Shown: one piece after another, positions 695 to 40,673 of the stretch
Numbering within the stretch: position 1 is the first letter of the stretch
Layout of the letters: every line of letters begins with the position of its first letter
Source of the DNA: Mariniflexile maritimum
Lineage (GTDB): Bacteria; Bacteroidota; Bacteroidia; Flavobacteriales; Flavobacteriaceae
Reading direction: 5' to 3'
Assembly (NCBI RefSeq): GCF_009746565.1
Contig: NZ_WRPN01000005.1
Span: forward strand, 186,001-250,000
Length of the DNA: 64,000 nt
Translations under genes and position numbers: made by a program
The notes under the pieces: generated by a model
Seen by the model: only the letters and a program-made list of their open reading frames with translations
Told to the model about the DNA's origin: nothing
Databases searched by the model: none

Positions 695-1132
695 TTAAAT
701 TCTGGGAACAAATCCGGCTAAACGTTGTTTGTAGGTTAGCTGAAAATAAATAAAATAATTGTATAGTTTATAGTTTACCTCGTAGCCATAATCGATATTG
801 GGTTGGTAATCTATTTGCATTTCGTATAAATTGGGGTTGTAACGTTGTGGTTGCATAACACGACTGTTCCATTCATTTACATAAATCAAGTTTCTGCTTT
901 CCAAGAATTGCTGTGAATAATAGCCTTCGGGTTTTGCTGTACTTGCTAGCCAGAAATTAAAACCCGGTTCAATGATAATGATTTCGTATTCTAAAGCATC
1001 ATTTGAAATGCTTACGGTATCGTTTAGTTTTAGGCTTTCTAGTGCTTCATCGTTATTGGAGGTGCTGTTTTTAACGGTGTTGCAGCTTATTGCAAATATG
1101 CTAAGTAGTAAAATGGATAGAATTGTTTTCAT
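695..1132 (-). CDS. DUF6146 family lipoprotein
   Basis: A 145-residue predicted lipoprotein. The N-terminus is a hydrophobic signal ending in a lipobox-like AISC, with the lipidated cysteine at residue 17. The mature part holds the conserved core of the flavobacterial DUF6146 family: EPGFNFWLAS, GYYSQQFLE, EWNSRV and an aromatic C-terminus (YGYEVNYKLYNYFIYFQ). It is probably anchored in the outer or inner membrane facing the periplasm. No biochemical role is known to me. A 7/8 promoter match (TACATTTA, minus strand, 1150-1157) lies upstream. Confidence 0.8.
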   Translation of the reverse strand: MKTILSILLLSIFAISCNTVKNSTSNNDEALESLKLNDTVSISNDALEYEIIIIEPGFNFWLASTAKPEGYYSQQFLESRNLIYVNEWNSRVMQPQRYNPNLYEMQIDYQPNIDYGYEVNYKLYNYFIYFQLTYKQRLAGFVPRI

Positions 1133-1293
1133 TAGTTCTAATTTTTTGTAAATGTAGGTTGCAACGGTGTGTCAATAAAAGCGACTTCGATGAAACCAAG
1201 CGTTTAATTGCGTAACGTAGCTTTTTCACAGAGTTTTAAGTGAACTTAAATTTACAAAAAATCATCCATATTTACGTGGTTTTGAACTTGTTT

Positions 1294-1326
1294 AAAAAAA
1301 AACGCCAAACTAATGCGTTTGACGTT
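1294..1326 (-). terminator. Rho-independent terminator after the DUF937 gene
   Basis: The arms AACGCCAAAC and GTTTGACGTT (9 of 10 pairs) enclose a six-base loop. On the minus strand they are followed by a run of T. It lies just downstream of the stop at 1352. Confidence 0.7.
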
Positions 1327-1351
1327 TGCTATTTTTAATAAGATAATTCGA

Positions 1352-1990
1352 TTATCTTTTTCCGAAGAGTCCGCCCAACAAACCTCCAAGACCTCCTTGT
1401 TTTTTGTTGCCACCCAAAACCATACCTGCCACATCGTCGATAACGCTGCCATCGCCGTCGGCATCCAGAATGGATTCTAAAAAGCTCTGTTCGTTTTTAG
1501 CGGAACTGCCTCCAAGCAACCCTCCTAAAAGACCTTCTAAGCCACTAGGGTTGCTTACATTTTGCTGTTTTGCCTGATTGCCCAATACACCCATTAAAAT
1601 AGGCGCCGCCACTTTAAGGATCTGGGCTACCGAATTGGCATCTAAACCTGCTTTTGCACCCAAAGTGCTTTCAACGGCCTGTTGTTTGTTTCCTAAAACG
1701 TGACCCAAAATTTTGCTACCATCTTCAAGAACGCTGGCATCTACACCACCACTGAATAACCCGCCCAAGTTTTCCAATAGGCTGCCGTCGTGTTTGTTGT
1801 TTAATGCATTTAATAAGCCTTCGGCGCCTTGCGGTGTTGCGGCGTTACGTTTCATGGCTTGCATTAAAACGGGCAACGCCATTGTTAAAACATCTTGGGT
1901 TTTACTTTGAGGTTGTTTGGTTTGTCCGGCAACACCATTAATGATGGTTTTTCCAAGATCACTGTTTAATAAGTCTAAAATTCCTGACAT
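1352..1990 (-). CDS. DUF937 domain protein
   Basis: A 212-residue soluble protein of the DUF937 (YidB-like) family. It opens with MSGILDLLNSDLGKTIINGV and contains the family's helical repeats, with KTQDVLTMALPVLMQAMKRN at about residues 30-50 and a second copy around APILMGVLGNQAKQQN. Gly-Leu-rich linkers (GLGGLLGGLFG) close the protein. There is no signal peptide or membrane segment. The molecular function is unknown. It lies downstream of serA but is separated from it by a terminator, so it is probably transcribed on its own. Confidence 0.85.
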   Translation of the reverse strand: MSGILDLLNSDLGKTIINGVAGQTKQPQSKTQDVLTMALPVLMQAMKRNAATPQGAEGLLNALNNKHDGSLLENLGGLFSGGVDASVLEDGSKILGHVLGNKQQAVESTLGAKAGLDANSVAQILKVAAPILMGVLGNQAKQQNVSNPSGLEGLLGGLLGGSSAKNEQSFLESILDADGDGSVIDDVAGMVLGGNKKQGGLGGLLGGLFGKR

Positions 1991-2084
1991 GATTGGTTAT
2001 GTTTAAGATTTAATAATTACAATGTTATAAGGCCTTTGTTTGAACACAGAACCTTGATAGTTACAGTTTTGCGGTTCAATGTAC

Positions 2085-2115
2085 AAAAAAAGTCCTAACC
2101 ATTTAAGTTAGGACT
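2085..2115 (-). terminator. Terminator of the serC-serA unit
   Basis: A perfect nine-base stem (AGTCCTAAC / GTTAGGACT) is followed on the minus strand by seven T residues. It lies 35 bases past the serA stop. Confidence 0.8.
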
Positions 2116-2149
2116 CCATTTTGTCGTTTAGGTCACAAGTTTTAGTGCC

Positions 2150-3100
2150 TTATTTTAAGAGGCTTATAATTTGAGCTGCCAATTCGGTGCCAATTCTATC
2201 CTGGGCCTCTTCGGTGGCGGCACCAATATGGGGAGTTAACGATAAACCGGCGTTCATTAATAATTGGATTTCTGGTTTTGGTTCGTTTTCAAAAACATCC
2301 AATGCTGCGCCTGCAACTTTTCCGCTTTGTATGGCAGCCACTAAAGCCGCCTCGTCAACCACACCACCTCGCGCCGCATTAGCTATAAACACGCCATTTT
2401 TCATGATTTCAAATTCTGGGGCACCAATTACATAGTCTTTTTGTGCAGGTACGTGCAAGGTGATAAAATCGGCTTGTTTTAAAACGTCTTCCTTGGAAAT
2501 GGTTTTAATATCAAAGCTTACTTTCTGGCCGTCAAAAAAGTCTAATTCCAAGTTGGCTTTTTCAATAAATGGGTCAAATGCAATTACTTTCATACCAGCA
2601 CCTAGGGCTACTTTTGCAGTTGCTTGTCCAATTCTACCAAATCCTAAAACACCTAAGGTTTTGCCTTTAAGTTCTACACCTTTGGCATAAGCTTTTTTTA
2701 GTTTTCCAAAGTTAGCGTCACCTTCTAAAGGCATGTCTCTGTTTGAATTGTGTAAAAATCGAGCCAATCCGTAAAAATGGCCAAACACTAATTCTGCAAC
2801 AGAATGTGATGAAGATGCGGGTGTATTGATAACGTGAATGCCTTTTGCTTTTGCATAATCGACATCAATATTATCCATGCCAACGCCGCCACGACCCACA
2901 ATCTTGATGCTTGGGCATGCATCAATAAGGTCTTTACGAACGGTGGTTGCGCTTCGAACCAATAAAACGTCAATTTGTTTTTCGTTGATATAATTTGCCA
3001 ACTGCTCTTGGGCAACAGTGGTTGTGATTACCTCAAATCCTCCATTTTCGAGTGCCTCTTTTCCGCTTTTTGAAATACCGTCGTTTGCTAATATTTTCAT
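2150..3100 (-). CDS. serA: D-3-phosphoglycerate dehydrogenase (short form)
   Basis: A 316-residue NAD-dependent D-2-hydroxyacid dehydrogenase. The first step of serine synthesis (3-phosphoglycerate to 3-phosphohydroxypyruvate) is the likely reaction because serC lies directly upstream. The Rossmann motif GFGRIG is at residues 153-158. The catalytic set is present: Arg244 (AARGG), Glu273 (ENEP) and His291 (TPHIG). GRGGVGMDNID near residue 70 is typical of the family. It lacks the C-terminal ACT or ASB regulatory domains of longer SerA forms, so feedback inhibition by serine through an ACT domain is not expected. A related 2-hydroxyacid dehydrogenase specificity cannot be fully excluded. Confidence 0.92.
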   Translation of the reverse strand: MKILANDGISKSGKEALENGGFEVITTTVAQEQLANYINEKQIDVLLVRSATTVRKDLIDACPSIKIVGRGGVGMDNIDVDYAKAKGIHVINTPASSSHSVAELVFGHFYGLARFLHNSNRDMPLEGDANFGKLKKAYAKGVELKGKTLGVLGFGRIGQATAKVALGAGMKVIAFDPFIEKANLELDFFDGQKVSFDIKTISKEDVLKQADFITLHVPAQKDYVIGAPEFEIMKNGVFIANAARGGVVDEAALVAAIQSGKVAGAALDVFENEPKPEIQLLMNAGLSLTPHIGAATEEAQDRIGTELAAQIISLLK

Positions 3101-3107
3101 TTTTTAA

Positions 3108-3130
3108 GTTAAAGGTTAAAGGTTAAAAGT
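3108..3130. repeat. Short GTTAAAG tandem repeat
   Basis: Three imperfect copies of GTTAAAG lie in the 152-base gap between serC and serA. It is low-complexity sequence with no evident function. The rest of the gap shows nothing recognisable. Confidence 0.5.
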
Positions 3131-3252
3131 TGAAAGTTTCAAGAAACGTCATCTTTTTTACTTTAGATTAATTTTATTTTTTTATTTCCGCGAAAGCGAA
3201 AAAATGATAATGCTTTGTAAGCACTGAAAACTGTTTTGGCTTACTGCTATTT

Positions 3253-4317
3253 TTATGCTTTGCTTTCCAGTTCACTCATTACTTCTACCAGTGCCTTTAC
3301 ACTTTCAATGGGTAAGGCATTGTACATGGATGCCCTATAACCCCCAACACTTCTATGGCCACCTAAACCGCTAATGCCCGCTTCTTTAAGCATTGTTTCG
3401 AAGGTTTCTTTTAAATTTTCATTTTCTAGGGTGAAGGTTGCATTCATGATAGAGCGATCTTCTTTACTGGCAAAACCGTTGAATAATGGGTTTAAATCTA
3501 TTTCAGAATACATCACACTTGCTTTTTTGTTGTTTAGTTCCTCAAGTGCTTTGATGCCGCCTAATTTTTTAATCCATTCTAGGGTTAGCATGGAGGTATA
3601 AACGGCAAATACGGGCGGTGTGTTGTACATGCTGCCATTCTCGATATGCAATTTATAATCCATGATGGATGGGATTTTTCGGGATACTTTTCCTAAAATA
3701 GCTTCCTTAACCACCACAAGCGTTGTGCCTGCTGGCCCCATGTTTTTTTGTGCGCCGGCGTAAATTAAATCGAATTTCGAGAAATCCAATACTCGTGAGA
3801 ATATATCGCTACTCATATCGCAAACCATGGGAATGGGCGAGTCTGGGAATGTTTTTATTTGGGTTCCAAAAATGGTATTGTTTGATGTGCAATGGAAATA
3901 ATCATAATCCTCTGGAATTTCATAACCCTTTGGAATGTAGTTGAAGTTGGCAGCTTCAGAAGAAGCTACTTCATAAATATCGTCAAGCATTTTGGCCTCC
4001 TTGATGGCTTTTTTGCTCCAGGTGCCCGTGTTTAAATAGCCAGCTCTTTTTTCTAAAAGATTTAATGCCACCATTAAAAACTGTGTACTGGCACCACCTT
4101 GTAAAAACAAGGCTTTGTAGCCTTTGCCCTCTAAACCTAGAAGCTCTAAAACCAGTGCCCTGGCTTTTTCCATAACATCAATAAACGATTTGCTTCTATG
4201 TGAAATCTCTAATATGGATAGGCCTTCATTATTAAAATCTATTACGGCATGAGATGATTTAAGTAGTACTTCTTGTGGTAAAATACTGGGTCCTGCACTA
4301 AAGTTGTGTTTCTTCAT
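3253..4317 (-). CDS. serC: Phosphoserine aminotransferase
   Basis: A 354-residue PLP-dependent class V aminotransferase. It converts 3-phosphohydroxypyruvate plus glutamate to phosphoserine plus 2-oxoglutarate, the second step of serine synthesis, and acts in pyridoxine synthesis in some bacteria. The N-terminal NFSAGPSILP and the Schiff-base lysine (Lys191 in AGAQKNMGPAG) are diagnostic. The C-terminus contains GHRSVGGYRASMYNA, the family's phosphate-binding region. Length is normal. It is followed by serA on the same strand, making a serine operon. A near-consensus promoter box (CAACTTTG) lies upstream at about 4343-4350. Confidence 0.95.
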   Translation of the reverse strand: MKKHNFSAGPSILPQEVLLKSSHAVIDFNNEGLSILEISHRSKSFIDVMEKARALVLELLGLEGKGYKALFLQGGASTQFLMVALNLLEKRAGYLNTGTWSKKAIKEAKMLDDIYEVASSEAANFNYIPKGYEIPEDYDYFHCTSNNTIFGTQIKTFPDSPIPMVCDMSSDIFSRVLDFSKFDLIYAGAQKNMGPAGTTLVVVKEAILGKVSRKIPSIMDYKLHIENGSMYNTPPVFAVYTSMLTLEWIKKLGGIKALEELNNKKASVMYSEIDLNPLFNGFASKEDRSIMNATFTLENENLKETFETMLKEAGISGLGGHRSVGGYRASMYNALPIESVKALVEVMSELESKA

Positions 4318-6124: not shown

Positions 6125-7144
6125 TCAAATAAGCTCTTGCAATCGTTTTGCGGCAATTTCGGCAGTTATATCACGCTGTGGCGAACCGAACATTTCATAG
6201 CCAACCATAAACTTTTTAACGGTTGCACTTCGCAATAACGGTGGATAGAAACTCATGTGCCAATGCCAGTGTTTATTTTCATTACCATCAGTTGGTGCTT
6301 GGTGGATACCGCTCGAATACGGAAACGACGTGTTGAATAATTTATCGTAAGCCTTTGTTATGGCTGCAATGGCCTCGGCGAATTGCAGGGTTTCGTTTGG
6401 AAGCATGTCCAAAATACTTGCTTGCGTCCTTTTGGGAACGATCATGGTTTCAAAAGGCCATACCGCCCAAAAAGGTACCAAAACCACAAACGATCCGTTT
6501 TCAAAAACAATACGTTCTTGCTTTTCAAGTTCCTGTGAAAGATAGTCGCCTAATAGACTTTTTTTGTTTTTGGAATAATAGGCAAGTTGTTGCTTGTCTT
6601 TTTTGTCCACTTCATTGGGAAGGGTCGATTGGCTCCAAATTTGTCCGTGCGGATGCGGATTGCTACAACCCATTACGGCGCCTTTGTTTTCAAAAATTTG
6701 AACATAATTGATGGTGTCGATATCGCCAAGTTCTTTGTATTCCTTTTGCCATGCGAAAACCACTTTTTCAATCTCTGCCGGAGTCATGTCCGCTAGACTT
6801 TTAGAGTGGTCGGGGCTAAAGCAAATCACCTTACAAATGCCGGTTTCACTTTGCGCTTTCAATAAACCATCCTCCACCTTAAAGGCTTTGGAATCGTTTT
6901 GAAGGGCGGCAAAATCGTTTGTAAACACAAACACATCTTTATAATCGGGGTTTGTTTCACCGTTAATGCGTTTATTTCCAGCACATAAATAACAGCTTGG
7001 GTCATGCGACGGTCTTTTTTCCGTGGAAATATCCTCATTTTGACCCTGCCATGGGCGTTTTGCACGATGGGGTGAAACTAAAATCCATTCGCCTGTTAGG
7101 ATATTGTAACGTTTATGTGAAAAATCTTGTAAATCGGTATTCAT
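6125..7144 (-). CDS. galT: Galactose-1-phosphate uridylyltransferase
   Basis: A 339-residue HIT-superfamily enzyme of the Leloir pathway: UDP-glucose plus galactose-1-phosphate gives UDP-galactose plus glucose-1-phosphate. The zinc site begins with Cys51 and Cys54 (CYLC). The active site is HPHGQIW with the nucleophilic His166. The HWHWHMSFYPP segment near residue 290 supplies further metal and phosphate contacts. Length is normal. It is the last gene of the gntR-galK-galT operon, 16 bases after galK. Confidence 0.96.
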   Translation of the reverse strand: MNTDLQDFSHKRYNILTGEWILVSPHRAKRPWQGQNEDISTEKRPSHDPSCYLCAGNKRINGETNPDYKDVFVFTNDFAALQNDSKAFKVEDGLLKAQSETGICKVICFSPDHSKSLADMTPAEIEKVVFAWQKEYKELGDIDTINYVQIFENKGAVMGCSNPHPHGQIWSQSTLPNEVDKKDKQQLAYYSKNKKSLLGDYLSQELEKQERIVFENGSFVVLVPFWAVWPFETMIVPKRTQASILDMLPNETLQFAEAIAAITKAYDKLFNTSFPYSSGIHQAPTDGNENKHWHWHMSFYPPLLRSATVKKFMVGYEMFGSPQRDITAEIAAKRLQELI

Positions 7145-7160
7145 TTTCTTCGATGATTAA

Positions 7161-8309
7161 TTAATTGATAACATGCGTTCCGTTGGAAAGTTCTACCGCA
7201 TAAATAGAACAATCTTTGTTGAATTTCTCTTTATAGGCTTTGGAAGCGCTTGCTTTGAATGATTCGGCTTCATTTTTGGCCACTAAGTTAATGGTACAAC
7301 CGCCAAAACCGCCACCCATCATGCGGGCGCCCAAAACATGACCGTTCAATCTGGCTTGTTCTACTAGAAAATCCAGTTCCTCGCAACTTACTTTGTATTG
7401 GTTTTGCAAACCATCATGCGATGCATAAATCAATTTCCCGAGCGTTTCCAAATCATCTGCTTTCATTGCCTGTGAAGCGCGAACCGCACGGTTGTTTTCC
7501 TGAATTACGAATAGGGCTTTTTGGTAATTCTCGGGTGTAATTTTATCCTTTATGCCTTGTAAATCAAATTCGGTGGCGTCGCGCAATGCCTTCACTTTCA
7601 GCATTTCAGAAATGGATTCGCAAACCGAACGTCTATCGTTATACGCGCTATCCGATAAACTGTGCTTTACGTTGGTATTGATTAAAATAAGTTCGTGGTC
7701 TTTAAAATTTATTTCAAAAGGAGTCGATGTTACAGTACGGCAATCCAGCAATAACGCATGGTTTTCGATACCGAACATGCTAGCATATTGGTCCATGATG
7801 CCACATTTCACGCCCACGTAATTATGTTCGGCCTTTTGTGAAATTAAAATCATGTCGTGTTTCGATAAATCCAACTTGAAGAGTTCATTTAACCCATACA
7901 CCACGCTGTTTTCCAGAGCTGCGGAAGATGACATGCCCGCACCCCCCGGAATATCGCCCCCAAAAGCGATGTTGAAATTTCCAATGGTTTTGCTCCGGTT
8001 CTGGATTTCAGCAATAACGCCCAAAATATAATTTTGCCAACTGCCTTGTGCCATGGGTTTTAGGTTGTTTAGGTTAAACTCAACCACCTCTTGTTTGTCC
8101 ACCGCAAAGGCCTTTGAGGTGTTGGAATCGCTTTTTTGTATAGCGGCAATGATGCCTTTATTTACGGCGGCTGGGAACACGAAACCATCGTTATAATCGG
8201 TATGTTCGCCTATAATATTGATTCTTCCCGGAGAAAAAATCAGCATCGGTTCAGTTTGGAATTTGTTAATGAAACTTTCTTTTACAGTGTTGATTAATGC
8301 TACATTCAT
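7161..8309 (-). CDS. galK: Galactokinase
   Basis: A 382-residue GHMP-family kinase that phosphorylates alpha-D-galactose with ATP at C1. All signatures are present: GRINIIGEHTDYNDG at residues 28-42 (galactokinase signature), GGAGMSSSAAL (ATP-binding P-loop of GHMP kinases) and GARMMGGGFGGC near the C-terminus. It lies 19 bases after the regulator gene and 16 before galT, so the three are probably co-transcribed. No epimerase (galE) or mutarotase is in the window. Confidence 0.97.
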   Translation of the reverse strand: MNVALINTVKESFINKFQTEPMLIFSPGRINIIGEHTDYNDGFVFPAAVNKGIIAAIQKSDSNTSKAFAVDKQEVVEFNLNNLKPMAQGSWQNYILGVIAEIQNRSKTIGNFNIAFGGDIPGGAGMSSSAALENSVVYGLNELFKLDLSKHDMILISQKAEHNYVGVKCGIMDQYASMFGIENHALLLDCRTVTSTPFEINFKDHELILINTNVKHSLSDSAYNDRRSVCESISEMLKVKALRDATEFDLQGIKDKITPENYQKALFVIQENNRAVRASQAMKADDLETLGKLIYASHDGLQNQYKVSCEELDFLVEQARLNGHVLGARMMGGGFGGCTINLVAKNEAESFKASASKAYKEKFNKDCSIYAVELSNGTHVIN

Positions 8310-8328
8310 GGTTGTTTTTTTAATTGTT

Positions 8329-9321
8329 TTATAGCGAATTCCGCAAAATGAGCGCGTTGCTATTTTCTATTTTTACTTGTTCTTTAGTGTTTATCATGTT
8401 TGCTAATTGTTCGCCCATTTTATTGAAATCGGTTGAAATGGTAGTGATTCCGCCTTCAACGAGTTCCTTGAGCAAGGTGTCGTTGTATGAAATGATGCCT
8501 ATATCTTGTGAAAGTACTAAATTTTTCTCTTTAATTTTTTTGATAATCCTTAACAGGTTTTTATCATCTGGAATTATAAATACGTCGCCTTTTGCAAGCG
8601 GTAGGTTTTCTAAGGAAGCTATTACAGCATGTTCCAAAACGTTCGATATACAAAATTTTTCAAAACCAATGCGCATGCCTTCAGGCTGTCTGCTCTCATC
8701 AAAAAGCAATATGATCCTATTGTATTTTTTTATTAGCGGGAGCGCTTTGTTAAGGTTGGAAATAATATCCTTCTCGAAATTTTGATAAACGGCGGGATAT
8801 TTTAATAATTCGCTGTGCATTTGGTCTAGTATGTAAACCCTTTCCTTGGGCAAACTGTCTATTGCAACGTGCGTGTTCTTTAAGTTGGCAGGCATGATGA
8901 TGTACTGGTTGTAAGCCCCTCTGTTTTCATGGATTAGCTTACTAAACATATCATAATTAAAATGATGGAAAAAAGTATCGACCCGTATGTTTTTATCTAA
9001 ATGTTTTAAAAATGAACTGTATAAATCTTCCTTAAATGAATTGAGTTCATCAAACAACAAGAAAATTTTTTGCGTTACATCAACCTGGTCATTCAAAACA
9101 TAATAACCCTTACCAACTATCGATTGAACGATACCCCTGGTTTTTAACTCGTTGAAGGCCATTAATACAGTATCCCTTGAAAGTTTGTGGGCCATACTTA
9201 CACTATTTATAGAAGGTAGCGCATCGCCTTTTTTTAAAGTTCCCGAAACAATAGCATTTTCAATAGAAGCAATAATTTGCTTGTATTTAGGGGTGCCTGT
9301 CTTTTGCTGAATACTAATCAT
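8329..9321 (-). CDS. GntR-family regulator with a LacI-type sensor domain
   Basis: A 330-residue transcription factor. Residues 1-70 form a GntR winged helix (QIIASIENAIVSGTLKKGDALPS, then SRDTVLMAFNELKTRG). Residues 80-330 resemble a periplasmic-binding-protein sensor (IIPDDKNLLRIIKK, DIGIISYNDTLLKEL, GITTISTDFNKMGEQLANMI), as in LacI regulators. Its position at the head of galK-galT suggests it senses a galactose-pathway sugar and controls its own operon. The promoter box at 9330-9337 lies only eight bases before the ATG, so the message would have almost no leader. Confidence 0.9.
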   Translation of the reverse strand: MISIQQKTGTPKYKQIIASIENAIVSGTLKKGDALPSINSVSMAHKLSRDTVLMAFNELKTRGIVQSIVGKGYYVLNDQVDVTQKIFLLFDELNSFKEDLYSSFLKHLDKNIRVDTFFHHFNYDMFSKLIHENRGAYNQYIIMPANLKNTHVAIDSLPKERVYILDQMHSELLKYPAVYQNFEKDIISNLNKALPLIKKYNRIILLFDESRQPEGMRIGFEKFCISNVLEHAVIASLENLPLAKGDVFIIPDDKNLLRIIKKIKEKNLVLSQDIGIISYNDTLLKELVEGGITTISTDFNKMGEQLANMINTKEQVKIENSNALILRNSL

Positions 9322-9329
9322 AATGCATG

Positions 9330-9337
9330 CAAATATA
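9330..9337 (-). promoter_or_regulatory. Promoter box of the gal operon (TATATTTG)
   Basis: A full TAnnTTTG match on the minus strand, eight bases from the start codon at 9321. Transcription would begin at or just before the ATG. Confidence 0.55.
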
Positions 9338-9350
9338 ATAAAAAAAACAA

Positions 9351-9370
9351 CTAGTAGGTACTGGTAGGTA
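9351..9370. promoter_or_regulatory. Candidate operator: two GTAGGTA direct repeats
   Basis: CTAGTAGGTA is followed immediately by CTGGTAGGTA, ten-base units differing at one position. A weaker ACTAGGTA lies at 9385-9392. The pair covers the expected -33 region of the gal promoter, where a bound repressor would block transcription. It may be the target of the adjacent GntR-type protein; this is inference from position. Confidence 0.45.
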
Positions 9371-9474
9371 ATTATATTATTAAGACTAGGTAAAAATAGG
9401 CAGTTTTGGATAGGCTTGAATAAACATTATCTACTGAAAATGTTTACATTTACTAAGGAAAATAGTATAAAAAA

Positions 9475-10173
9475 GTGATTATTTTGGAATTAGAAGGACA
9501 TTACATACATAGAAGCGGTTGGTTAAGAGCGGCCATATTAGGTGCCAACGATGGTATTTTGTCAACAGCAAGTGTTATAATTGGTGTTGCGGCTGCTAGC
9601 CATACACGCGAGCCCATTGTGCTCGCGGGCGTTGCAGGTTTGGTGGCCGGTGCATTATCCATGGCGGCTGGGGAATATGTTTCGGTTAGTTCGCAATCGG
9701 ATGTCGAGCATGCCGATCTTCAAAGGGAAATAAAGGAACTAAAAGATTCACCTGAACATGAGTTAACCGAATTGGCAGAAATTTATGAACAACGCGGTTT
9801 GGATAGAGTATTGTCTCTTAAAGTTGCCGAACAACTAACAGCCCATGATGCTTTAGGTGCTCATGCCCGCGACGAACTTGGCATAAATGAAATTACGCAA
9901 GCAAAACCATTACAAGCTGCTTTAGCTTCTGGCGGAGCATTTTTGTTTGGTGGCATTTTGCCTGTTATCGTTGCGTTGGTTGCGCCCGTTAAGCAAATGG
10001 TTTATATACAGTACATTTTTGCAACACTTTTTTTAGTTGTTTTAGGCGTTACGGCTGCAAAAGCAGGTGGTTCCAATATTAAAAAAGCCATATTGCGCAT
10101 TACGTTTTGGGGTACCATTGCAATGGGCATTACGGCTTTAATAGGCTACTTGTTTGGAGTGAATATGGCGTAG
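9475..10173 (+). CDS. VIT1/CCC1-family transporter
   Basis: A 232-residue membrane protein of the VIT1/CCC1 family, which moves Fe2+ or Mn2+ out of the cytoplasm. The first membrane region carries the family motif RAAILGANDGILSTASVIIGV. Further segments are VLAGVAGLVAGALSMAAGEYVSV, a charged cytoplasmic stretch (residues 80-150, rich in Glu, metal-binding in this family) and three C-terminal helices. The start is a GTG at 9475; an in-frame TTG at 9484 is possible. It is a single gene divergent from the gal operon. Confidence 0.9.
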   Translation: MIILELEGHYIHRSGWLRAAILGANDGILSTASVIIGVAAASHTREPIVLAGVAGLVAGALSMAAGEYVSVSSQSDVEHADLQREIKELKDSPEHELTELAEIYEQRGLDRVLSLKVAEQLTAHDALGAHARDELGINEITQAKPLQAALASGGAFLFGGILPVIVALVAPVKQMVYIQYIFATLFLVVLGVTAAKAGGSNIKKAILRITFWGTIAMGITALIGYLFGVNMA

Positions 10174-10196
10174 CTTGGTAGTAAATTAAAGATTTA

Positions 10197-10280
10197 ACAC
10201 GGATTTTTATTGCTATGCCATGATTTTTTATGAAAAACCACTCAAAGTATTATGTGCAACATTCCCAAAAAAATCCGTGT
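10197..10280. repeat. Inverted repeat flanking 60 bases
   Basis: Perfect 12-base arms ACACGGATTTTT (10197-10208) and AAAAATCCGTGT (10269-10280) lie in the gap between two convergent genes. It may fold as a long hairpin or be an intergenic repeat unit. Confidence 0.55.
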
Positions 10281-10288
10281 GCGTTCGT

Positions 10289-10474
10289 TTAATCCTTAAC
10301 CCCCAATTTTGCTAAAATAGTATCCATTAAGCACCATTTGGTGATGGACGATTGTAATAAATTGGCACCCACAAAAGCGGTAAACCAAAGCCAATTAATG
10401 TTTACATAAATAGCAAGTAGCAAGCTTATAAGTATAAATGTGCCTGCAACTGCGCGTACAATTCTGTTTTTCAT
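10289..10474 (-). CDS. DUF2892 (YgaP-like) small membrane protein
   Basis: A 61-residue protein with two hydrophobic helices (residues 5-24 and 26-43). It matches the DUF2892 family: MKNRIVRAVAGTFILISLLL, then NWLWFTAFVGANLLQSSITKWC with the conserved C-terminal Cys and LxxLGV end. DUF2892 domains often accompany sulfur-transfer (rhodanese) or metal-export genes. Here it is the last gene of the RND efflux operon, 11 bases after the PII-like gene. The function is unknown. Confidence 0.85.
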   Translation of the reverse strand: MKNRIVRAVAGTFILISLLLAIYVNINWLWFTAFVGANLLQSSITKWCLMDTILAKLGVKD

Positions 10475-10485
10475 GGTTATTTATT

Positions 10486-10791
10486 TTAGTTTGATTTTTC
10501 AATGTTCATTACCGCAATATGGATGTGCGATAGGGTTTTTTGTTTTTTGTTGAAATCGTTTATTTCATTAAACAAGGCATCAACAGTTTCATTTTTCACA
10601 AAGGCATAAAATAGAATGGATTCCGTTTGGTTCATTTCACTTGAAAACCAGTTCGATTCTACGGCATCTTCGGTACTATCCCTATATCCGGTAACTTCTC
10701 GAAATGAAAATGTTTTTACTTCGGCTTTTTTTAGATGTAATTTGATGTCCTTTTCAAATTCTTTTATGGCAGTAATAATGACTAATTTCAT
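10486..10791 (-). CDS. PII-like signalling protein linked to RND efflux
   Basis: A 101-residue protein with the ferredoxin-like fold pattern of PII/CutA proteins: MKLVIITAIKEFEKDIKLHL (strand-helix), TFSFREVTGYRDS at the second strand where PII has its T-loop, then FYAFVKNETVDALFNEINDF and a last strand HIHIAVMNIEKSN. Canonical PII ATP-binding signatures are not evident. It starts nine bases after the RND permease gene and is surely in that operon. It may sense a ligand and regulate the pump, as proposed for PII-like proteins coupled to transporters, but this is inference. Confidence 0.7.
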   Translation of the reverse strand: MKLVIITAIKEFEKDIKLHLKKAEVKTFSFREVTGYRDSTEDAVESNWFSSEMNQTESILFYAFVKNETVDALFNEINDFNKKQKTLSHIHIAVMNIEKSN

Positions 10792-10800
10792 AGTATTGTA

Positions 10801-13800
10801 TTATAGTTTAGTGGTTTCATCTTCCTCTTCTTTGGAAGGGGTCGTGGTGGTTTCCCATTTTTTGCGTTCGGTGATGTAATAAATCAATGGCACCACAATA
10901 AGCGTTAATAAGGTTGAAACGATGGCACCTGCCACCAGCGAAATGGCCAATCCTTGGAAAATGGGATCGAACAAAATGATGGATGCTCCAATAACAACGG
11001 CACCCGTAGTTAATAAAATGGGGGTTGTTCGAACCGCTCCCGCATCAATAATGGCTTGTTTTAATGGAATGCCGTCATTTAAACGTATTTCAATAAAGTC
11101 TATTAAAAGCACCGAATTTCTTACCATCACGCCCGCTAGGGCAATCATGCCAATAAAGGAGGTGGCGGTAAAAAATGCGCCCAACATCCAGTGTCCCAGT
11201 ACAATACCAACGAGTGATAGTGGTATGGCAACCATCATAACCAACGGGGTTTTGAAGTTTTGGAACCAGCCAACAATAAGCATATAGATAATAACGATAA
11301 CCACTAAAAAGGCCGTTCCCAAATCGCGGAACACTTCCAAGGTTATTTGCCATTCGCCATCCCATTTTACGGTAAAATCGGTTTCTTCACTTGGTGAACC
11401 AATGTATAGTTCATTTATTTTGTAGCCTTTTGGAAGTTCTATTTTTTGGAGTTTTTCGTTCATTCCTAAAATGGCATACACCGGACTTTCAAGTTCGCCA
11501 GCCATATCTGCCAACACATATACCACCCGTTTTTGGTCTTTTCTGTATATATTATGATCGAGTGTTTCTTTTTTAACCGAAACTAAATCGTTTACAGGAA
11601 TCACGTTGCCCCGGCTTCCCTTAATTTTTAAATTTTGAATGTCTTGAAGCGATGTTTTATCCTTATCGTCTAGCGACAGCACGATGCTTACATTATCGTT
11701 TGAAGTTTCATCGTATAAATTGGCAATGGGATATTCTTGCAACAAATAGGTTAAATTCCCCACTATTTGTTGTGGGGCAATGCCGTTAAGCATCGCTTTT
11801 TCTTTATCAACTTCCAAACGGTATTCCACCTGGTCTGCTTCAACCATCCAATCGGCATCAACCACATCCACCGTGTTTTCCAAAATGTGCTTCACTTGGT
11901 TGGCAACCTTAATTTGCTCGTCGTAGTTTGGGCCATAAACTTCGGCCACAAGGGTAGAAAGTACAGGTGGCCCTGGTGGTACTTCAACAATTTTTACATT
12001 AGCGTTGAATTTTTTGGCTATTTTTTGAATGTTAGGACGCACTATTTTGGCAATATCATGGCTCTGTAAGTCCCTGTTTTCTTTGTGAAGCAAGTTTACT
12101 TGAATATCGGCCATATTGCTGCCACCGCGCATATCATAATGCCTTACCAAACCATTAAACGTAATGGGGGCAGAGGCACCAATGTAGTTTTGGTAATCGA
12201 CCACTTCGGGAACCGTTTTTAAATATTGGGCAATCTCTTGGGTTACCATGGCAGTTCTTTCCAGCGTGGTGCCTTCGGGCATATCTATTACCACTTGAAA
12301 TTCATTTTTATTATCAAATGGCAACATTTTTACGGCCACCGATTTGGTAAAAAACATCACGACCGACCCTAAAAGCAATAGGATGGTAACAACAAACATG
12401 AGGTTTCGTTTTTTAGGGTTATCCAAAAACGGTTGCTCCACTTTTTTGTATATTTTGTAAATACGGCTCGTTTCTAAACCGGCTTCTTCTTTATGTGCCT
12501 GTTCATCTTTTTCCTGTAATAAATGATAGCCTAAATAGGGCGTAACCGTTAATGCCACAAATAGCGATAAAATCATGGCAATGGAAGCGCCAATGGGCAT
12601 TGGGCTCATATAAGGCCCCATCATGCCCGATACAAACGCCATGGGCAAAATGGCGGCAATTACCGTAAATGTTGCTAATATGGTGGGGTTGCCTACTTCG
12701 TTTATGGCATAAATGGCGGCTTGTTTAAATGGTAAACGCTTCATTTTAAAATGGCGGTGCATGTTTTCGGCAATGATAATACTGTCGTCAACCACTATAC
12801 CTACCACAAATACCAATGCAAAAAGGGTAATCCTGTTCAATGTATAACCTAGCATGTAATAGGCAAATAAGGTTAATGCAAAGGTTAATGGCACCGAGAA
12901 GAATACCACCAAACCACCGCGCCAACCCATGGCCAACATAACCAATATGGTAACGGCTAAAATGGCCACTCCTAAATGCAATAAAAGTTCGCCCACCTTA
13001 TCGGAAGCGGTTTCACCATAATTCCTGGTTACTTCCACATGCACATCGTTGGGTATTAAGGTCGATTTTAGTTTGTCGATATGGGTAATTATCTTTTCGG
13101 AAATTTTCATCGCGTCGGCCCCTTTTACCTTTGAAACAGAAATGGTAACCGCTGGGTATTCCGATTTAAAATCTTTATACGCCTCATGGGTTTGTCCGAA
13201 TCCAAACGCTACATAACTTTTTGCCGATGCGGGCCCGTCCTCGATGTTTGCCACTTGTTTTAAATAAACGGGCATATTTTTATTAACGCCTACCACCAAA
13301 TTTTCAACATCCTCTTTGGTTTCTAAAAAGCGTCCGGTGGTAATTAAATATTCGGTATCGTTATTCACAAAACTTCCCGATTGCGAACTGCTGTTGTTGG
13401 CCTGTACCATTTGCATAATGCCAAGGGCATCTACATTGTTCCCAGCCATTTTGTCTTTGTCCAAAACCACTTTAAGCTCGCGGTTTCTGCCACCAATTAC
13501 TTTGGTAATCGACACATCCTTAACCTTTTCAATTTCAGAGGTAAGTTCTTCGGCCATTTGGCGTAATTGGAAATCGTCATAATGCTCGCTCCAAAGGGTA
13601 AGCCCCAACATGGGTACATCATCAATAGAGCGTGTTTTTACAATAGGTTTATAAACCCCCTGCGGAAACATGTTTTCATGTTTCATTAGCTCATCGTACA
13701 GTTTTACATACGAACGCTCAGTATCTTCGCCCACATAAAACTGAACGATAATGACCGCTTGACCGTTCATGGCCATACTATGTACGTGCTCAACGCCTTT

Positions 13801-35369: not shown

Positions 35370-35529
35370 TTATTATTTCAAATAACTGTAATTGAGCTAA
35401 TTAATTATTTGGTTAAAATATTATTTAAAATTAATCTAAATAAACTTAGTGTTTTTCATTTTGTATTTTTTTTGCCGACGTCTTATTATTTGTAATGAGT
35501 CTAAATAAAAACAAAAAACAATCAACAAA

Positions 35530-36687
35530 ATGAAAAGAATACCTTTATTATTAGCAATTTTCACTACTGCTTTTACATTTTCACAAACAGTTCCAGAGGA
35601 AACAAGTTCAAATCCAAACAGCCAATTAAATGGTGCACAGCGTATTATGTCTGGAAACATCACAAATGGCGTAACCATTGGCGGTTACGGTGAAATTAAT
35701 TATAACCAACCCGAAGGCGGTAATGGAACGTTGGACGTGCAGCGTTTGGTTATGCTGTTTGGTTATAAATTTAACGACCGTGTACAGTTTGTAACGGAAA
35801 TTGAATTTGAGCACGTAAAAGAAGTATTTGTAGAGCAAGCATTTTTGCAATACAGTTTAAACAATAATGTGAACCTACGCGGTGGTTTAATGCTTGTACC
35901 TATGGGCATTGTAAACGAATACCACGAACCGACCACGTTTAACGGGGTTGACAGGCCCAGTGTCGATAAGAGCATTGTACCAACCACATGGCGGGAAATT
36001 GGCGTAGGTGTTCAAGGGAGGTTTAATGAAATTTCGTTAGGCTACCAAGCCTATCTTTTCAATGGCTTTAAGTCCGTAAATGCTGGAAAAGTATTGGGAG
36101 GTTCCAACGGTTTGCGAAATGGTCGCCAAAAAGGGGCCGAATCTACTATTAACACACCAAATGTGTCTGGTAAATTGGATTATTATGGAATCCCTGGATT
36201 GCGAATGGGCTTATCTGGCTATTTTGGTCGAACTCAGGCCGAAGATGCTGTGGACATGCTCGAGGGTGCCGATGTGGGCATTTCCATGGTAGGCATGGAT
36301 GCGCGCTATGCATACCAACGTTTTACGGCTCGTGGGCAATTTATACATGCAAGCATTTCGGATACAGAAGCCTACAATACCTTAAATACGACCGATTTGG
36401 GCAGTGCATTACAAGGTTGGTATTTGGAAGGTGCTTACAATTTGTTGCCACTTACCAAACAGCAACAGTTATTTGCCTTTGCTAGGTATGAAGATTATGA
36501 TACCCATGCCTCAGTAGAAGGTGGATTAATAAGAAACGATAGTTACAACAGAAACGAATGGACTTTTGGATTGAGCTATAAAGTAGCACCAGGAGCGGTT
36601 GTGAAAGCAGATTATCAAGTAAAGGAAAATGCCGCTGCCACAAGTGCAAAAAACCAATTGAATGTGGGCATTGGGGTTTGGTTTTAA
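35530..36687 (+). CDS. Phosphate-selective-type porin (OprP-like)
   Basis: A 385-residue outer-membrane protein. Signal peptide: residues 1-19 (MKRIPLLLAIFTTAFTFSQ). The rest is a beta-barrel: many alternating strands (TIGGYGEINYNQ, LMLVPMGIVNEYHEPTTFNGV, GYQAYLFNGFK, WTFGLSYKVAPGAVVKADYQVK) ending in a terminal aromatic residue (GIGVWF), the outer-membrane insertion signal. GYGEINYNQPEGG and RREIGVGVQG-type loops resemble the porin O/P family. Downstream on the same strand are an FMN-binding and a membrane protein, with a long hairpin between. The solute is unknown; anion or metal passage is possible. Confidence 0.85.
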   Translation: MKRIPLLLAIFTTAFTFSQTVPEETSSNPNSQLNGAQRIMSGNITNGVTIGGYGEINYNQPEGGNGTLDVQRLVMLFGYKFNDRVQFVTEIEFEHVKEVFVEQAFLQYSLNNNVNLRGGLMLVPMGIVNEYHEPTTFNGVDRPSVDKSIVPTTWREIGVGVQGRFNEISLGYQAYLFNGFKSVNAGKVLGGSNGLRNGRQKGAESTINTPNVSGKLDYYGIPGLRMGLSGYFGRTQAEDAVDMLEGADVGISMVGMDARYAYQRFTARGQFIHASISDTEAYNTLNTTDLGSALQGWYLEGAYNLLPLTKQQQLFAFARYEDYDTHASVEGGLIRNDSYNRNEWTFGLSYKVAPGAVVKADYQVKENAAATSAKNQLNVGIGVWF

Positions 36688-36725
36688 GCGAATGGCATTG
36701 TTAAGAAACTATTAAATTATAAAAG

Positions 36726-36767
36726 TTGCCACAAATACACGAATAAATTTTTGTGTGTTTGTGGCAA
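36726..36767 (+). repeat. Long hairpin between porin and FMN-binding gene
   Basis: Arms of 18 bases (TTGCCACAAATACACGAA and its inverse at 36750-36767; 16 of 18 pair) enclose a short T-rich loop. There is no T tract after it, so it may attenuate rather than end transcription, or be an intergenic repeat. Confidence 0.6.
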
Positions 36768-36794
36768 ATACCAATAAATCAATACTTTTGCTAG

Positions 36795-37322
36795 ATGGAT
36801 ATGAAACGGTTTTCACTTTTATTCATTACTTTAATTTTGATGTCTTTTGCCATTCAAAAAGACCTGAACAAAAAAGTTGACAAGGAAATTAAGGAAGTGT
36901 TTAAGGTAAGCAATTACACGTATAGTGCTATTTTGTTGTCTTCAGAGATTAAAAAACAATTGCCTTCAAAATTTGAAACGGATAATTTTATAGCCCTAAA
37001 AGCCAATAATGCGTTAATTGGATATGCATACATGGGGAAAGCCCCAAGTAAAACCGATGCGTTTGACTATTTGGTGCTGCTTGATAAAAACCAAGTGATA
37101 TTAAAAACCAAGGTAATTGCCTATCGCGAAGATTATGGCGGTGAAATAGGCAGTAAGCGGTGGTTGCAGCAATTTATTGGTAAAAAACCATCGGATCAAT
37201 TAAGATATGGCGATACTGTTGTGGCCATTTCTGGCGCCACTATTTCGGTGCGTTCCATGACCGATGCCATGAATAATTTATTGGAATCCTTAAAAATCCT
37301 TCAATCAAAAAAAATATTGTAA
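36795..37322 (+). CDS. Exported FMN-binding domain protein
   Basis: A 175-residue protein with an N-terminal signal/anchor (residues 4-18). It carries a covalent FMN-binding domain (PF04205 type, as in NqrC/RnfG): ALIGYAYMGKAPSK at the start, YGGEIGSKRWLQQFIGKKP, then VVAISGATISVRSM, where Thr in SGAT is the expected site of FMN attachment by ApbE. It is an extracytoplasmic redox protein. The stop codon is followed directly by the start of the next gene, so the two form an operon. No apbE lies in the window. The start used here is ATG at 36795; a second ATG (36801) is possible. Confidence 0.85.
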   Translation: MDMKRFSLLFITLILMSFAIQKDLNKKVDKEIKEVFKVSNYTYSAILLSSEIKKQLPSKFETDNFIALKANNALIGYAYMGKAPSKTDAFDYLVLLDKNQVILKTKVIAYREDYGGEIGSKRWLQQFIGKKPSDQLRYGDTVVAISGATISVRSMTDAMNNLLESLKILQSKKIL

Positions 37323-37811
37323 ATGCAACTAAACGGATTGATAACAACGCTTCCCAAAGAATTAAAATTATTAATCGGGATTTTTTTAGTGGTTCTAAGC
37401 ATGGGTTTTTTTACCGGATTATTGTTTGTGGGCGAAACATCATCTGCAAATCCGAATGGTATTGAAGCGCATTATTTGGGTAATGAAAATGATGAAAACG
37501 CCACAGTGATGCACTTTAAAAAAAGTGAACGCGAAATGCTTACCTTGGTGCATAACCATATTTTGTCCATGTCCATTATTTTTTTCTTATTGGGTAGTTT
37601 AGTGTCCATAACCAAGCTCAACAAAAAACTGAAACTTTTTTTAATGTTAGAGCCCTTTCTATCGGTAGTCCTCACCTTTGGAGGCTTATATCTGCTTTGG
37701 TGCGGATGGCTTTGGATGACCTATATCGTGATGTTTTCTGGGGTGTTAATGACCGCCACGTTTACCGCTTCCGTAGTAATTGTGCTTAAACAACTGCTTC
37801 AAAAAAAATAG
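37323..37811 (+). CDS. Four-helix membrane protein partner of FMN-binding protein
   Basis: A 162-residue integral membrane protein with about four helices (residues 14-34, 78-97, 106-124 and 129-155). A periplasmic loop of about 40 residues lies after helix 1, and its end carries TLVHNHILSMSIIFFLLG with two His near the membrane surface. I do not recognise a named family. The ATG follows the upstream stop with no spacer, so it is co-translated with the FMN-binding protein and may pass electrons to it; the His pair might bind heme, which is inference only. After it come 99 bases containing two AAGACATTAA copies. Confidence 0.7.
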   Translation: MQLNGLITTLPKELKLLIGIFLVVLSMGFFTGLLFVGETSSANPNGIEAHYLGNENDENATVMHFKKSEREMLTLVHNHILSMSIIFFLLGSLVSITKLNKKLKLFLMLEPFLSVVLTFGGLYLLWCGWLWMTYIVMFSGVLMTATFTASVVIVLKQLLQKK

Positions 37812-37910: not shown

Positions 37911-40673
37911 TTGAAAAGGTTATTTTTACTTCTAGTCCTGTTTTCCTCATCCATATTGTTCGCTCAAAAATTTACTTTAGAAGGCGTTGTTAAAGACCAC
38001 AGTGCCACCCTTTTGGAAGGCGCCACCGTATATGTGCAAAGCATAAAGGATAGTGTTCCCATAGCGTATGGCATTACCAACAAAAACGGTGCATTCTCAT
38101 TGCAGGTGAATACCGAAACCGATTCTAATGCTATCTTTAAGATTGCGTATTTGGGCTACAAGCCTTATAAACAAGATATTAATGTGCCCGAAGGCAAACA
38201 GTTGCATTTGGGAACGATTGTGCTAGAAGACCAAATAGAACAATTAAATGTGGTATCCATAATTGGGAAGGCGCCTCCAATTTTGATAAAACGCGATACT
38301 ATCGAGTATCATGCCGATAGCTTTAAGACCCTACCCAACGATAAGGCCGAAGACTTATTGAAAAAACTGCCCGGGGTTGAAATAGATCTAGATGGCAACA
38401 TTACCGTAAATGGGGTGGAGGTAGAAGCCATAAATGTAGATGGTATGCGGTTTTTTGGTGAAAAAAAGGGCGATATCGCATTAAAAAACTTGCCCAGTAA
38501 CGTTATTAGCAAGGTACAGGTTACCGATTATAAAAGCAACATGCAAAAGTTTACGGGCGAAGAATCCGATTCGGGCACCAAGGAAATAAACCTCACCATA
38601 AAAAAAGGAAAAAACAGGGCTACTTTTGGCGATGTTAAAGTGGGCTATGGTACCGATGAAAAATACCAAGCCAATGCCAATGTGTTCCAATTGATTGATG
38701 GTAAGCAATTAGGTTTGATTACGGGCACCAACAATATTAACATGTCGAAAGGCTTTAATGCACTGCCCGATACCGATACCAGTAATGGCTATATAGAATC
38801 GGATTTTGTGGGTGCCAATTTTTCAAAGGGAAAATGGAACGAAACGCGTACCAATGGAAATTACAGGTTTAGTTCCCAAAATACCGATAACGCCCAAATT
38901 AGCCACACCGAGAATTTTCTGCCCAATTTGAATTACGTTACAGATTCTGAAAGCAGTAGTTTTAACGATTCCGAAAGCCATCAAGGAGGAGCCGATTTAA
39001 AGTTCATCATAGAACCCAAAAATAAAGCGTCAAGAAACAAGGTGCAATTATCCAATGAAACCGATTTTAATGTTGAAAATTCAGATTCTGGGTCCTTATC
39101 CAATCGGTTTTCACAAGAAACCAATGGCGACTTGGTAAGTGCCTATAAAGCATCAAACCAAACAACTTCTTCAAATTATCAAATTACAAACAACTTCAGC
39201 ATTACTCCCATTACGGGCAAAGGAAGGGATTATTTGAATGTGGAACTGGGGACCGATTTTAAAAAGGGCCATTCCGATACCCAAAAGTATTCTGAAAACA
39301 TTCGCTTCAAAAAGAACGATACTATTGTACAAAATCAAATAAACGACGCAAAAAACGCAAACAACAACATCAGTTTGAATGCAATGTGGAGCAAAGAGCT
39401 GTTTACTAATTTCAGGCTCATTCCCAGATACCATGTTAGTATCAATACTCAAGATAATGAAAAATACATTTATGATTATAACAAAACCACCAACGACTAT
39501 GATGATTTTAATGAAGTTCTAAGTTCAGACAGTCGATATTCTACCACAACCATTAGGCCTGCTTTAAGGTTGCGGTATGACTATAAGGATTTTCGTTTTG
39601 AAGTGGAAGGCGCCTTAACGAATACTTATAGAAATTACGAAGATGAACTTGTGGAAGCTCGGAACTTTAAAAAAGATTTTGAATATGTAACCTATTCGGC
39701 AAGGGTGCGCTATCGCGATAAAAATGGCTATAAAAACATCAACTTAAACTATAACCAAAGGGTCGATTTGCCCTCGGTAAGCCAATTGCAACCGGTTGAG
39801 GATGTTAGCAATATTACCCATATACGGGTGGGAAACCCCTTTTTAAAACCAGAAATAGACCATAATATTAATTTCGAGTACCAAAACAATGTGGCATTTC
39901 ACAACATCAATATTACGGGAAATGCCAAGGCGCAATTTGTTCAGGATAAAATCATTAACGCGACCATTACCGACGACGATTTGAATAAATATACCACATA
40001 CGCCAACATAAATGGCGATTATTCGTTTTCCGGCAATGCAGCCATTTCAAAATCATTTTACAACAAAAAAACAAACATCAATATAAACGCGCGAATAAAT
40101 GGGTCGTACGGCAACACGTTGTCCATCCAAAATGCCATAAAGTTTACCGCAAAAACCACAAATATAAAACCGTCTGTCTCGTTTAAGTATTCCTATGATA
40201 ATAAATTGGATTTTAGCGGTACTTATAGTTATTCAACAAACACCAGTGTTTACGATACCGATACTTTTAACGATAACAACTATTTTGTTCAAAATGTAGA
40301 TTTTGATGCCTCGGTCTTTTTCTTAAAAAATGTGTTCTTGTCCAATAAAATTTCCTATCGTTATAACAGTCGTGTAGGCGATGCTTATGATGGGGATGCC
40401 ATTTTCTGGAATGTGGGACTTGGTGCTGAGTTATGGGACAATAAAGCAACCCTAACATTGATTGGCTACGATATGCTTGGTAAAAACAATGGTTACAGAC
40501 GGCTGGTAACAGAAACATCCATCCAAGATGTAGAGAATAAAATTCTAGAGCAGTATTTTATGCTCAACTTTACCTATAAATTTGGGCGTTTTGCTGGACA
40601 GAAAATGAACATGGGCGGTGACCGCGATTCAAGACGTGGCAGGGGAGAAGGTGGTGGTATGCGACGATGGTAA
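37911..40673 (+). CDS. Outer-membrane beta-barrel protein, TonB-receptor-like
   Basis: A 920-residue protein starting at a TTG (MKRLFLLLVLFSSSILFAQ signal peptide). Order: a carboxypeptidase-regulatory-like domain (FTLEGVVKDHSATLLEGATV, residues 21-105), a plug-like domain (DKAEDLLKKLPGVEIDLDGN, residues 120-220) and a beta-barrel to the end. The Flavobacteriia 'outer membrane beta-barrel family' fits. The C-terminus is odd: after the last strand FTYKFGRFAGQKM comes a 20-residue Arg-Gly-rich tail (GDRDSRRGRGEGGG). The substrate is unknown and no SusD-like partner lies nearby. Confidence 0.88.
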   Translation: MKRLFLLLVLFSSSILFAQKFTLEGVVKDHSATLLEGATVYVQSIKDSVPIAYGITNKNGAFSLQVNTETDSNAIFKIAYLGYKPYKQDINVPEGKQLHLGTIVLEDQIEQLNVVSIIGKAPPILIKRDTIEYHADSFKTLPNDKAEDLLKKLPGVEIDLDGNITVNGVEVEAINVDGMRFFGEKKGDIALKNLPSNVISKVQVTDYKSNMQKFTGEESDSGTKEINLTIKKGKNRATFGDVKVGYGTDEKYQANANVFQLIDGKQLGLITGTNNINMSKGFNALPDTDTSNGYIESDFVGANFSKGKWNETRTNGNYRFSSQNTDNAQISHTENFLPNLNYVTDSESSSFNDSESHQGGADLKFIIEPKNKASRNKVQLSNETDFNVENSDSGSLSNRFSQETNGDLVSAYKASNQTTSSNYQITNNFSITPITGKGRDYLNVELGTDFKKGHSDTQKYSENIRFKKNDTIVQNQINDAKNANNNISLNAMWSKELFTNFRLIPRYHVSINTQDNEKYIYDYNKTTNDYDDFNEVLSSDSRYSTTTIRPALRLRYDYKDFRFEVEGALTNTYRNYEDELVEARNFKKDFEYVTYSARVRYRDKNGYKNINLNYNQRVDLPSVSQLQPVEDVSNITHIRVGNPFLKPEIDHNINFEYQNNVAFHNINITGNAKAQFVQDKIINATITDDDLNKYTTYANINGDYSFSGNAAISKSFYNKKTNININARINGSYGNTLSIQNAIKFTAKTTNIKPSVSFKYSYDNKLDFSGTYSYSTNTSVYDTDTFNDNNYFVQNVDFDASVFFLKNVFLSNKISYRYNSRVGDAYDGDAIFWNVGLGAELWDNKATLTLIGYDMLGKNNGYRRLVTETSIQDVENKILEQYFMLNFTYKFGRFAGQKMNMGGDRDSRRGRGEGGGMRRW

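Follow-up and report, generated by a model that had tools for sequence, protein, structure and literature searches.

We describe a three-gene cassette at positions 35530–37811 of a 64-kb window of Mariniflexile maritimum DNA, the window being the whole stretch of DNA that was analyzed. Its three open reading frames (ORFs), all on the + strand, encode a porin, a protein with the flavin mononucleotide (FMN)-binding domain FMN_bind, and a four-helix membrane protein that we call mem4. We consider it probable that the cassette is a Fur-controlled, flavin-based periplasmic ferric reductase for iron uptake under starvation. The computed support comprises the conservation of the three genes as a unit, a link to ApbE, Fur-type operators at the operon head, and associations with FeoB, FTR1, Fur, and ferritin. 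Beyond this, we infer covalent FMN on the FMN_bind protein, the direction of electron flow, quinol and mem4 as donors, iron as the direct acceptor, and the porin as the entry route.

A Conserved Three-Gene Unit

The cassette consists of the porin gene (35530–36687, 385 aa), the gene for the RnfG-like FMN_bind protein (36795–37322, 175 aa), and mem4 (37323–37811, 162 aa). The FMN_bind stop codon ends at 37322 and the mem4 ATG begins at 37323, with zero spacer. A preliminary description, made from the sequence alone, had reported a porin, an FMN-binding protein with an SGAT motif, and an abutting four-helix membrane protein of no known family; ORF analysis, Pfam, and AlphaFold2 bear out all three genes.

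Searches for mem4 covered the window’s phylum, Bacteroidota. They provided 134 loci, 80 from GTDB contigs (kept from 432 contig stretches with mem4) and 54 from further genomes, with at least one genome represented twice (L025 and L215; L, G, and f numbers are our handles for loci, genomes, and families). Weak matches, namely G057/L021, G142/L127, and, at the end of a contig, the 34-aa fragment G120/L178, were removed before counting. An FMN_bind gene lies directly upstream of mem4 at 133 of the 134 loci, the exception being a contig end, and the two genes overlap or touch at 113 loci and are separated by gaps of ≤15 bp at 20. The porin belongs to the cassette at 132 of 134 loci, the exceptions being the same contig end and L133; in f47, the porin is divergent and on the opposite strand. 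The three genes form a conserved unit, and their linkage is beyond chance, so the linkage in relatives that the preliminary description had singled out for checking holds. The carriers from GTDB are mostly Flavobacteriaceae, and mem4 is present in 19 of 60 relatives (one weak match included).

At L133 (7644–8570), a DUF6607 protein replaces the porin before FMN_bind and mem4, with a Fur-type box ahead, which provides a lead to the role of DUF6607.

Fur-Type Operators at the Head of the Operon

Two Fur-type operators, overlooked by the preliminary description, lie just upstream of position 35530. The porin promoters of the 80 Flavobacteriaceae loci have the inverted repeat ATTTAGAnTnAnTCTAAAT in common. 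Operator 1 (35423–35441), ATTTAAAATTAATCTAAAT, has one mismatch to this repeat, and its 23-bp form (35421–35443) has none; operator 2 (35488–35506), ATTTGTAATGAGTCTAAAT, has two mismatches. The Flavobacteriaceae loci often have such a second copy closer to the start codon, and 63 of the 80 have two TCTAAAT-type sites.

The repeat occurs at ≤2 mismatches in 76 of 77 usable Flavobacteriaceae promoters and in 0 of 77 shuffles. Among control promoters, it was found at the same threshold in 0 of 69 for an HMG-CoA-lyase-like gene and in 4 of 71 for IMPDH. In the entire window, two sites lie within three mismatches of the repeat, both at the head of this operon. Since ten window shuffles gave 15 matches in total at ≤3 mismatches and 1 at ≤2, it is the one- and two-mismatch level that counts in the window. 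At ≤3 mismatches, 47 of 53 genomes have the box at the operon head (0.55 expected), and at ≤2 mismatches, 39 do (0.03 expected), the expected counts being derived from single-base shuffles, 40 per locus. Moreover, the box tracks the first gene of the operon, which is the porin in most families, a Fur gene in f50, f52, and f72, ApbE in the GC-rich f27, and DUF6607 in f19.

In the flavobacterium Riemerella anatipestifer, the Fur box is given as ATTTAGAATTATTCTAAAT, and Fur bound candidate promoters, four of them tested, in an electrophoretic mobility-shift assay (PMC5609570). The cassette operator matches this box. The 23-bp form occurs at nine distinct sites in the M. maritimum genome, compared with two matches for a reversed-pattern control. 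Two of the nine are at the cassette, two precede a gene pair for a TonB receptor and a PepSY_TM protein, one directly precedes feoAB, one lies between hemA and a gene for an AraC-type regulator, and three are less clear. With a promoter box that is conserved in relatives, the operon is a predicted member of the Fur regulon.

Some of these sites are of interest in their own right. At L225 (G000:C35:141000-149000; 157–3900), the TonB receptor is followed by the PepSY_TM protein, with Fur-type boxes at 3817 and 3878; the two probably work together, within the same regulon, in siderophore uptake and reduction. At L227 (G000:C38:34500-50500), the box between the AraC-type regulator and hemA (12341–12363) suggests that haem synthesis, or the regulator, is under iron control. 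Another box at L227 (3001–3023) lies just 3′ of a ferritin gene, and 338 bp separate it from a small lipoprotein-like gene downstream.

The FMN_bind Protein as a Predicted ApbE Substrate

The FMN_bind protein scores 32.8 bits with Pfam family PF04205, over the curated threshold of 22. With the NCBIfam equivalogs, it scores 33.1 bits for rnfG (cutoff 102) and 11.4 bits for nqrC (cutoff 144), reaching neither cutoff, and in a PDB sequence comparison, it matched RnfG (9eri) with an E value of 0.0012. RnfG and NqrC are therefore its nearest relatives in sequence and have the GAT motif in common with it, but its scores are far under their cutoffs, and no Rnf or Nqr genes lie beside the cassette. 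A hydrophobic stretch is visible at the N terminus in the sequence, and the protein may be exported to the periplasm. The SGAT codons (37230–37241, + strand) place the expected attachment site at Thr149, which probably carries covalent FMN judging by the motif. GAT is retained in all 133 FMN proteins, preceded by S in 118, A in 12, V in 2, and T in 1.

The preliminary description had also pointed to the presence of apbE as a check, and the genome has two copies. One is part of a cluster of DUF3570, ApbE, and thioredoxin-like genes, and the other has a longer FMN_bind gene at a distance of ∼15 kb. The DUF3570–ApbE–thioredoxin cluster, at L129 (G000:C1:546000-562000; 6438–9531), constitutes a second flavinylation system of this genome. 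ApbE was found in 43 of 43 mem4 genomes of one set and in 16 of 17 of another. In 19 of 60 genomes, spanning eight families, apbE lies within the cluster itself on the same strand; in three genomes, FeS_assembly_P genes adjoin ApbE. All 11 apbE-cluster genomes that were searched for both families have the cassette’s FMN_bind and ApbE as their sole copies (the FMN_bind search left out the 17 genomes of the second ApbE set). Because each of these genomes has one FMN_bind and one ApbE, the FMN_bind group of the cassette is the expected ApbE substrate there, and deletions of apbE and of the operon in these genomes would probe one pathway cleanly.

mem4, a Membrane Protein Outside the Searched Families

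The mem4 protein of the window has no match in Pfam or NCBIfam, in line with the preliminary description, which had placed it in no known family. Against Pfam, 23 divergent mem4 proteins gave scattered weak matches, none common to more than three members. No mem4 match was found to the NapH, MsrQ, PepSY, DsbD, NqrB/RnfD, or DUF4405 families, and the same is true of the 23 divergent members among the matches listed (25 of 28 families, E ≤ 10). A search of plasmids gave no match to the window’s mem4.

The AlphaFold2 model of mem4 has four long helices (residues 12–39, 69–95, 101–126, and 132–158) and a mean predicted local distance difference test (pLDDT) score of 86.2. The structure prediction that the preliminary description had proposed as a way to heme or quinone sites thus yielded a fold, whereas comparison of that fold revealed no cofactor. 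Foldseek returned nothing from the PDB at E ≤ 0.001, VIA-align found generic helical bundles only (top Z 9.2, vinculin), and the mem4 profile, searched against PDB sequences, gave one match, which we judged to be chance. The VIA-align match 8q4h_C, from a menaquinol:organohalide oxidoreductase complex (chain C), was rejected as a lead to the mem4 cofactor; its Z of 6.8 over 87 residues is within background.

Both histidines of an HxH motif (His77 and His79; HNH in the window, codons 37551–37559, + strand) are kept in all 134 mem4 proteins, and the buried residues E110 and P111 are kept in 132 of 134. The distribution of positively charged residues at the N terminus, in the loop between helices 2 and 3, and at the C terminus suggests an N-in, C-in topology. 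By this positive-inside rule, HxH would lie on the periplasmic side, at the end of helix 2, within reach of the flavoprotein; the preliminary description had placed the HNH pair near the membrane surface. Similar HxH membrane proteins may adjoin FMN-binding proteins in proteobacteria. The most divergent mem4 proteins, at L195 and L196 (f28), retain HxH and have lost E110–P111; their gene order is FeoB–porin–FMN–mem4–ApbE with no recognizable box, and they are a lead to a wider family.

As the constant partner of the FMN gene that is kept beside either iron permease (see below), and with no RnfG or NqrC partner in the single-FMN_bind genomes, mem4 would be the natural electron source for the FMN_bind protein. 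More tentatively, mem4 could represent a new class of minimal quinol:flavoprotein oxidoreductase, of ∼165 residues with HxH as its only fully conserved histidines, that passes electrons directly to a covalent-flavin protein without haem or Fe–S. Together with its dedicated porin, it would form a phylum-wide, Fur-controlled ferric-reduction module that accepts FeoB or FTR1. We hold this wider proposal as a possibility short of even odds.

The Porin

The porin scores 24.8 bits with the Pfam family Porin_O_P (cutoff 20.9). Its AlphaFold2 model has 16 strands (mean pLDDT 77.4), and the top PDB matches by Foldseek are other 16-stranded porins, with OprP in 11th place at 13% identity, identifying it as a 16-stranded outer-membrane barrel. 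Family and barrel are shared with the OprP/OprO porins, but identity to OprP is low. The “OprP-like” label of the preliminary description is thus right as to family and fold, with OprP itself well down the list of matches, and it carries no information on phosphate here. We rejected phosphate uptake as the main role: it is hinted at only by the Pfam name, and the neighbors give no support outside f27. With the cassette, members of Porin_O_P outside proteobacteria gain a possible role other than phosphate.

Iron-Related Neighbors

Flanking genes were mapped widely at 54 loci, each from a different genome, and permeases were counted in 60 genomes. A FUR-family gene lies inside the cassette at 6 of the 54 loci, and four of the six were confirmed by Pfam. 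FeoB lies inside the cassette in 4 of 60 genomes (G311, G432, G284, and G063) and FTR1 in 3 of 60 (G435, G372, and G405), with FTR1 over the cutoff in only 5 of the 60. No FeoB_C match was found in G435 or G405 (the latter 67% complete). Since their FTR1 cassettes occur in genomes without a FeoB_C match, the two permeases look interchangeable. It is in distant relatives that Fur and one or the other permease have entered the cassette. A ferritin gene lies near the cassette at 18 of the 80 Flavobacteriaceae loci, on the cassette strand in all 18 and directly downstream of mem4 in 12; at L133, ferritin adjoins the cassette on the opposite strand. On the basis of the operators and the gene neighborhood, iron is most likely the solute of the route.

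At L141, L185, and L190 (f50), a secreted protein of ∼400 aa is encoded between Fur/FTR1 and the porin, with PD40 (beta-propeller) repeats by Pfam in L141 and L185; it may be an extra iron-handling part.

Proposed Mechanism and Alternative Explanations

We propose that iron-loaded Fur represses the operon by binding the one or two head operators and that iron shortage would release it. The porin would then admit small ferric complexes, or ferric ions, to the periplasm. There, FMN on Thr149, attached by ApbE, would reduce Fe(III) to Fe(II). For this, mem4 would oxidize membrane quinols at a periplasmic-face site formed around its invariant HxH and pass the electrons on to the FMN_bind protein. 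Finally, FeoB, or in some relatives FTR1, would import the Fe(II), which ferritin would then store. The preliminary description had sketched a route from the membrane through a flavin to a solute entering by the porin. That route is still the best reading, now with iron indicated as the solute; mem4 as the donor and entry through this porin are still presumed.

Several observations weigh against ferric reduction as the function. The cassette is dispensable, with mem4 in one of five other genomes of the genus and in 27 of 296 genomes of a phylum sample (one weak match included). The counts for ferritin and FeoB are phylogenetically nonindependent. One mem4 genome, G381 (440 contigs, 97% complete), has no ApbE match. 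Families f28 and f47 have no recognizable box (four genomes; four to eight mismatches), and in G037 and G352 it is weak, at more than three mismatches. In mem4, no electron-transfer motif of any known class was recognized, and HxH on a single helix is insufficient alone for the usual two-sided haem ligation. Two papers on iron in Flavobacteriales (PMC5429918 and PMC9478572) have no FMN protein in their main text, although carriage of the cassette by those strains was not checked. Lastly, the f27 cassettes (L131, L132, L145, and L204) have a gene for a PCuAC copper chaperone directly after mem4 and one for a solute-binding protein ∼3 kb farther on; these neighbors, seen only in this GC-rich genus, could hint at another metal or anion.

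The features of mem4 can also be read in a different way, as the invariant HxH at the periplasmic end and the buried Glu–Pro pair (132 of 134) would suit a metal path no less than a quinol site. The protein might then handle iron itself, as an Fe(II) channel, receptor, or chaperone, while another reductant, such as a quinol dehydrogenase, served the flavoprotein. This would fit the iron context of the cassette, but we regard it as rather unlikely. Seven genomes keep mem4 beside FeoB or FTR1, which makes it no simple substitute for a permease; in the 11 genomes with a sole FMN_bind protein, neither an RnfG nor an NqrC partner is available as another route to the flavin; and mem4 is coupled to the FMN gene at nearly every locus (133 of 134). 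Extracellular electron transfer, in which the flavoprotein would dock in or below the barrel and electrons would cross the outer membrane to iron or another outside acceptor as in a flavin counterpart of porin–cytochrome conduits, would account for the presence of the porin at 132 of 134 loci, a constancy second only to that of FMN_bind and mem4 and one that plain diffusion would not need. It is improbable in our view, given that the porin is modeled as an ordinary 16-stranded barrel whereas known porin–cytochrome conduits have larger ones and that a single FMN domain is too short as a wire across the membrane. Also, DUF6607 stands in the porin’s place in L133, the porin is on the opposite strand in f47, and a Fur-type operator and iron permeases indicate assimilation.

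The least probable of these alternatives, to our mind, is that the substrate is not iron, so that copper, a phosphorus oxyanion, or an organic acceptor would be reduced by a system that is merely iron-controlled, for example in a response to metal or peroxide stress. Some FUR-family regulators sense something other than iron, Porin_O_P takes its name from phosphate porins, and the PCuAC and solute-binding neighbors in f27 would suit such a role. Nevertheless, the iron-specific FeoB, FTR1, and ferritin accompany the cassette in several families, and the other copies of the operator in the genome stand at feoAB, at the TonB receptor–PepSY pair, and beside hemA.

Relation to Known Systems

Flavinylated extracytosolic electron transfer systems have been grouped by Meheust et al. 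(2021) into five transmembrane classes (NapH-, MsrQ-, PepSY-, DsbD-, and NQR/RNF-like), some of them linked to iron (PMC8238504), and DUF4405 cytochromes add another flavinylation-linked membrane class (PMC11334425). Like the cassette, these systems combine an extracytoplasmic ApbE substrate with a small membrane protein, and several are proposed iron reductases. In contrast, they have several haem histidines where mem4 has a single HxH, and mem4 belongs to none of their Pfam families by sequence; the word “porin” is absent from the main text of both papers.

Iron assimilation clusters of the P19/FTR1 type also contain FMN-binding genes (PMC8238504, section 15). In Bifidobacterium breve, the iron cluster bfeUO-sifABCDE includes FTR1 and the FMN-binding SifE, and cluster mutants and an apbE mutant are listed as sensitive to iron chelator (PMC5449479). 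Both resemble the cassette in having an FMN_bind protein beside an FTR1 permease under iron limitation, but the cassette has a porin, mem4, and a Fur-type box and is accompanied by FTR1 in only 3 of 60 genomes. The PepSY/FoxB ferric-siderophore reductases likewise perform an inner-membrane redox step for iron, and the PepSY_TM gene of this genome (L225) is under the same operator. Their membrane fold differs from that of mem4, and the L225 pair has no flavoprotein partner. In view of the flavinylated systems and the B. breve cluster, the cassette would belong to a known kind of system, flavin-based iron assimilation, with features of its own: a nameless membrane component, a porin, and Fur-type control. 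No description of the cassette was found in the literature searched, mainly open-access, and it may figure as an unannotated cluster in the supplements of PMC8238504.

Many bacterial genomes encode ApbE substrates without an assigned task (PMC8238504). The cassette gives one group of these substrates a testable job and a regulator across many Bacteroidota families, including marine Flavobacteriaceae of iron-scarce habitats. It also exposes a membrane protein family that is nameless in the searched libraries, with two invariant histidines as the likely point of electron entry.

Neighboring Genes

The HMG-CoA-lyase-like and IMPDH genes were rejected as partners of the cassette. They are present at 70 and 71 of the 80 Flavobacteriaceae loci, respectively, and because distant loci do not show them, we take the linkage as local synteny. 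An OMP_b-brl_3 gene between mem4 and IMPDH (37911–40673, TTG start as called) was also rejected as a member of the unit; it is probably a later insertion, since IMPDH follows mem4 within ∼600 bp in most relatives. Elsewhere in the genome, at L226 (G000:C38:12000-24000; 10104–10757), a DtxR-type iron-dependent repressor with a C-terminal FeoA domain is encoded near a second, split FeoB-like GTPase/permease pair, separate from the feoAB under the Fur-type box.

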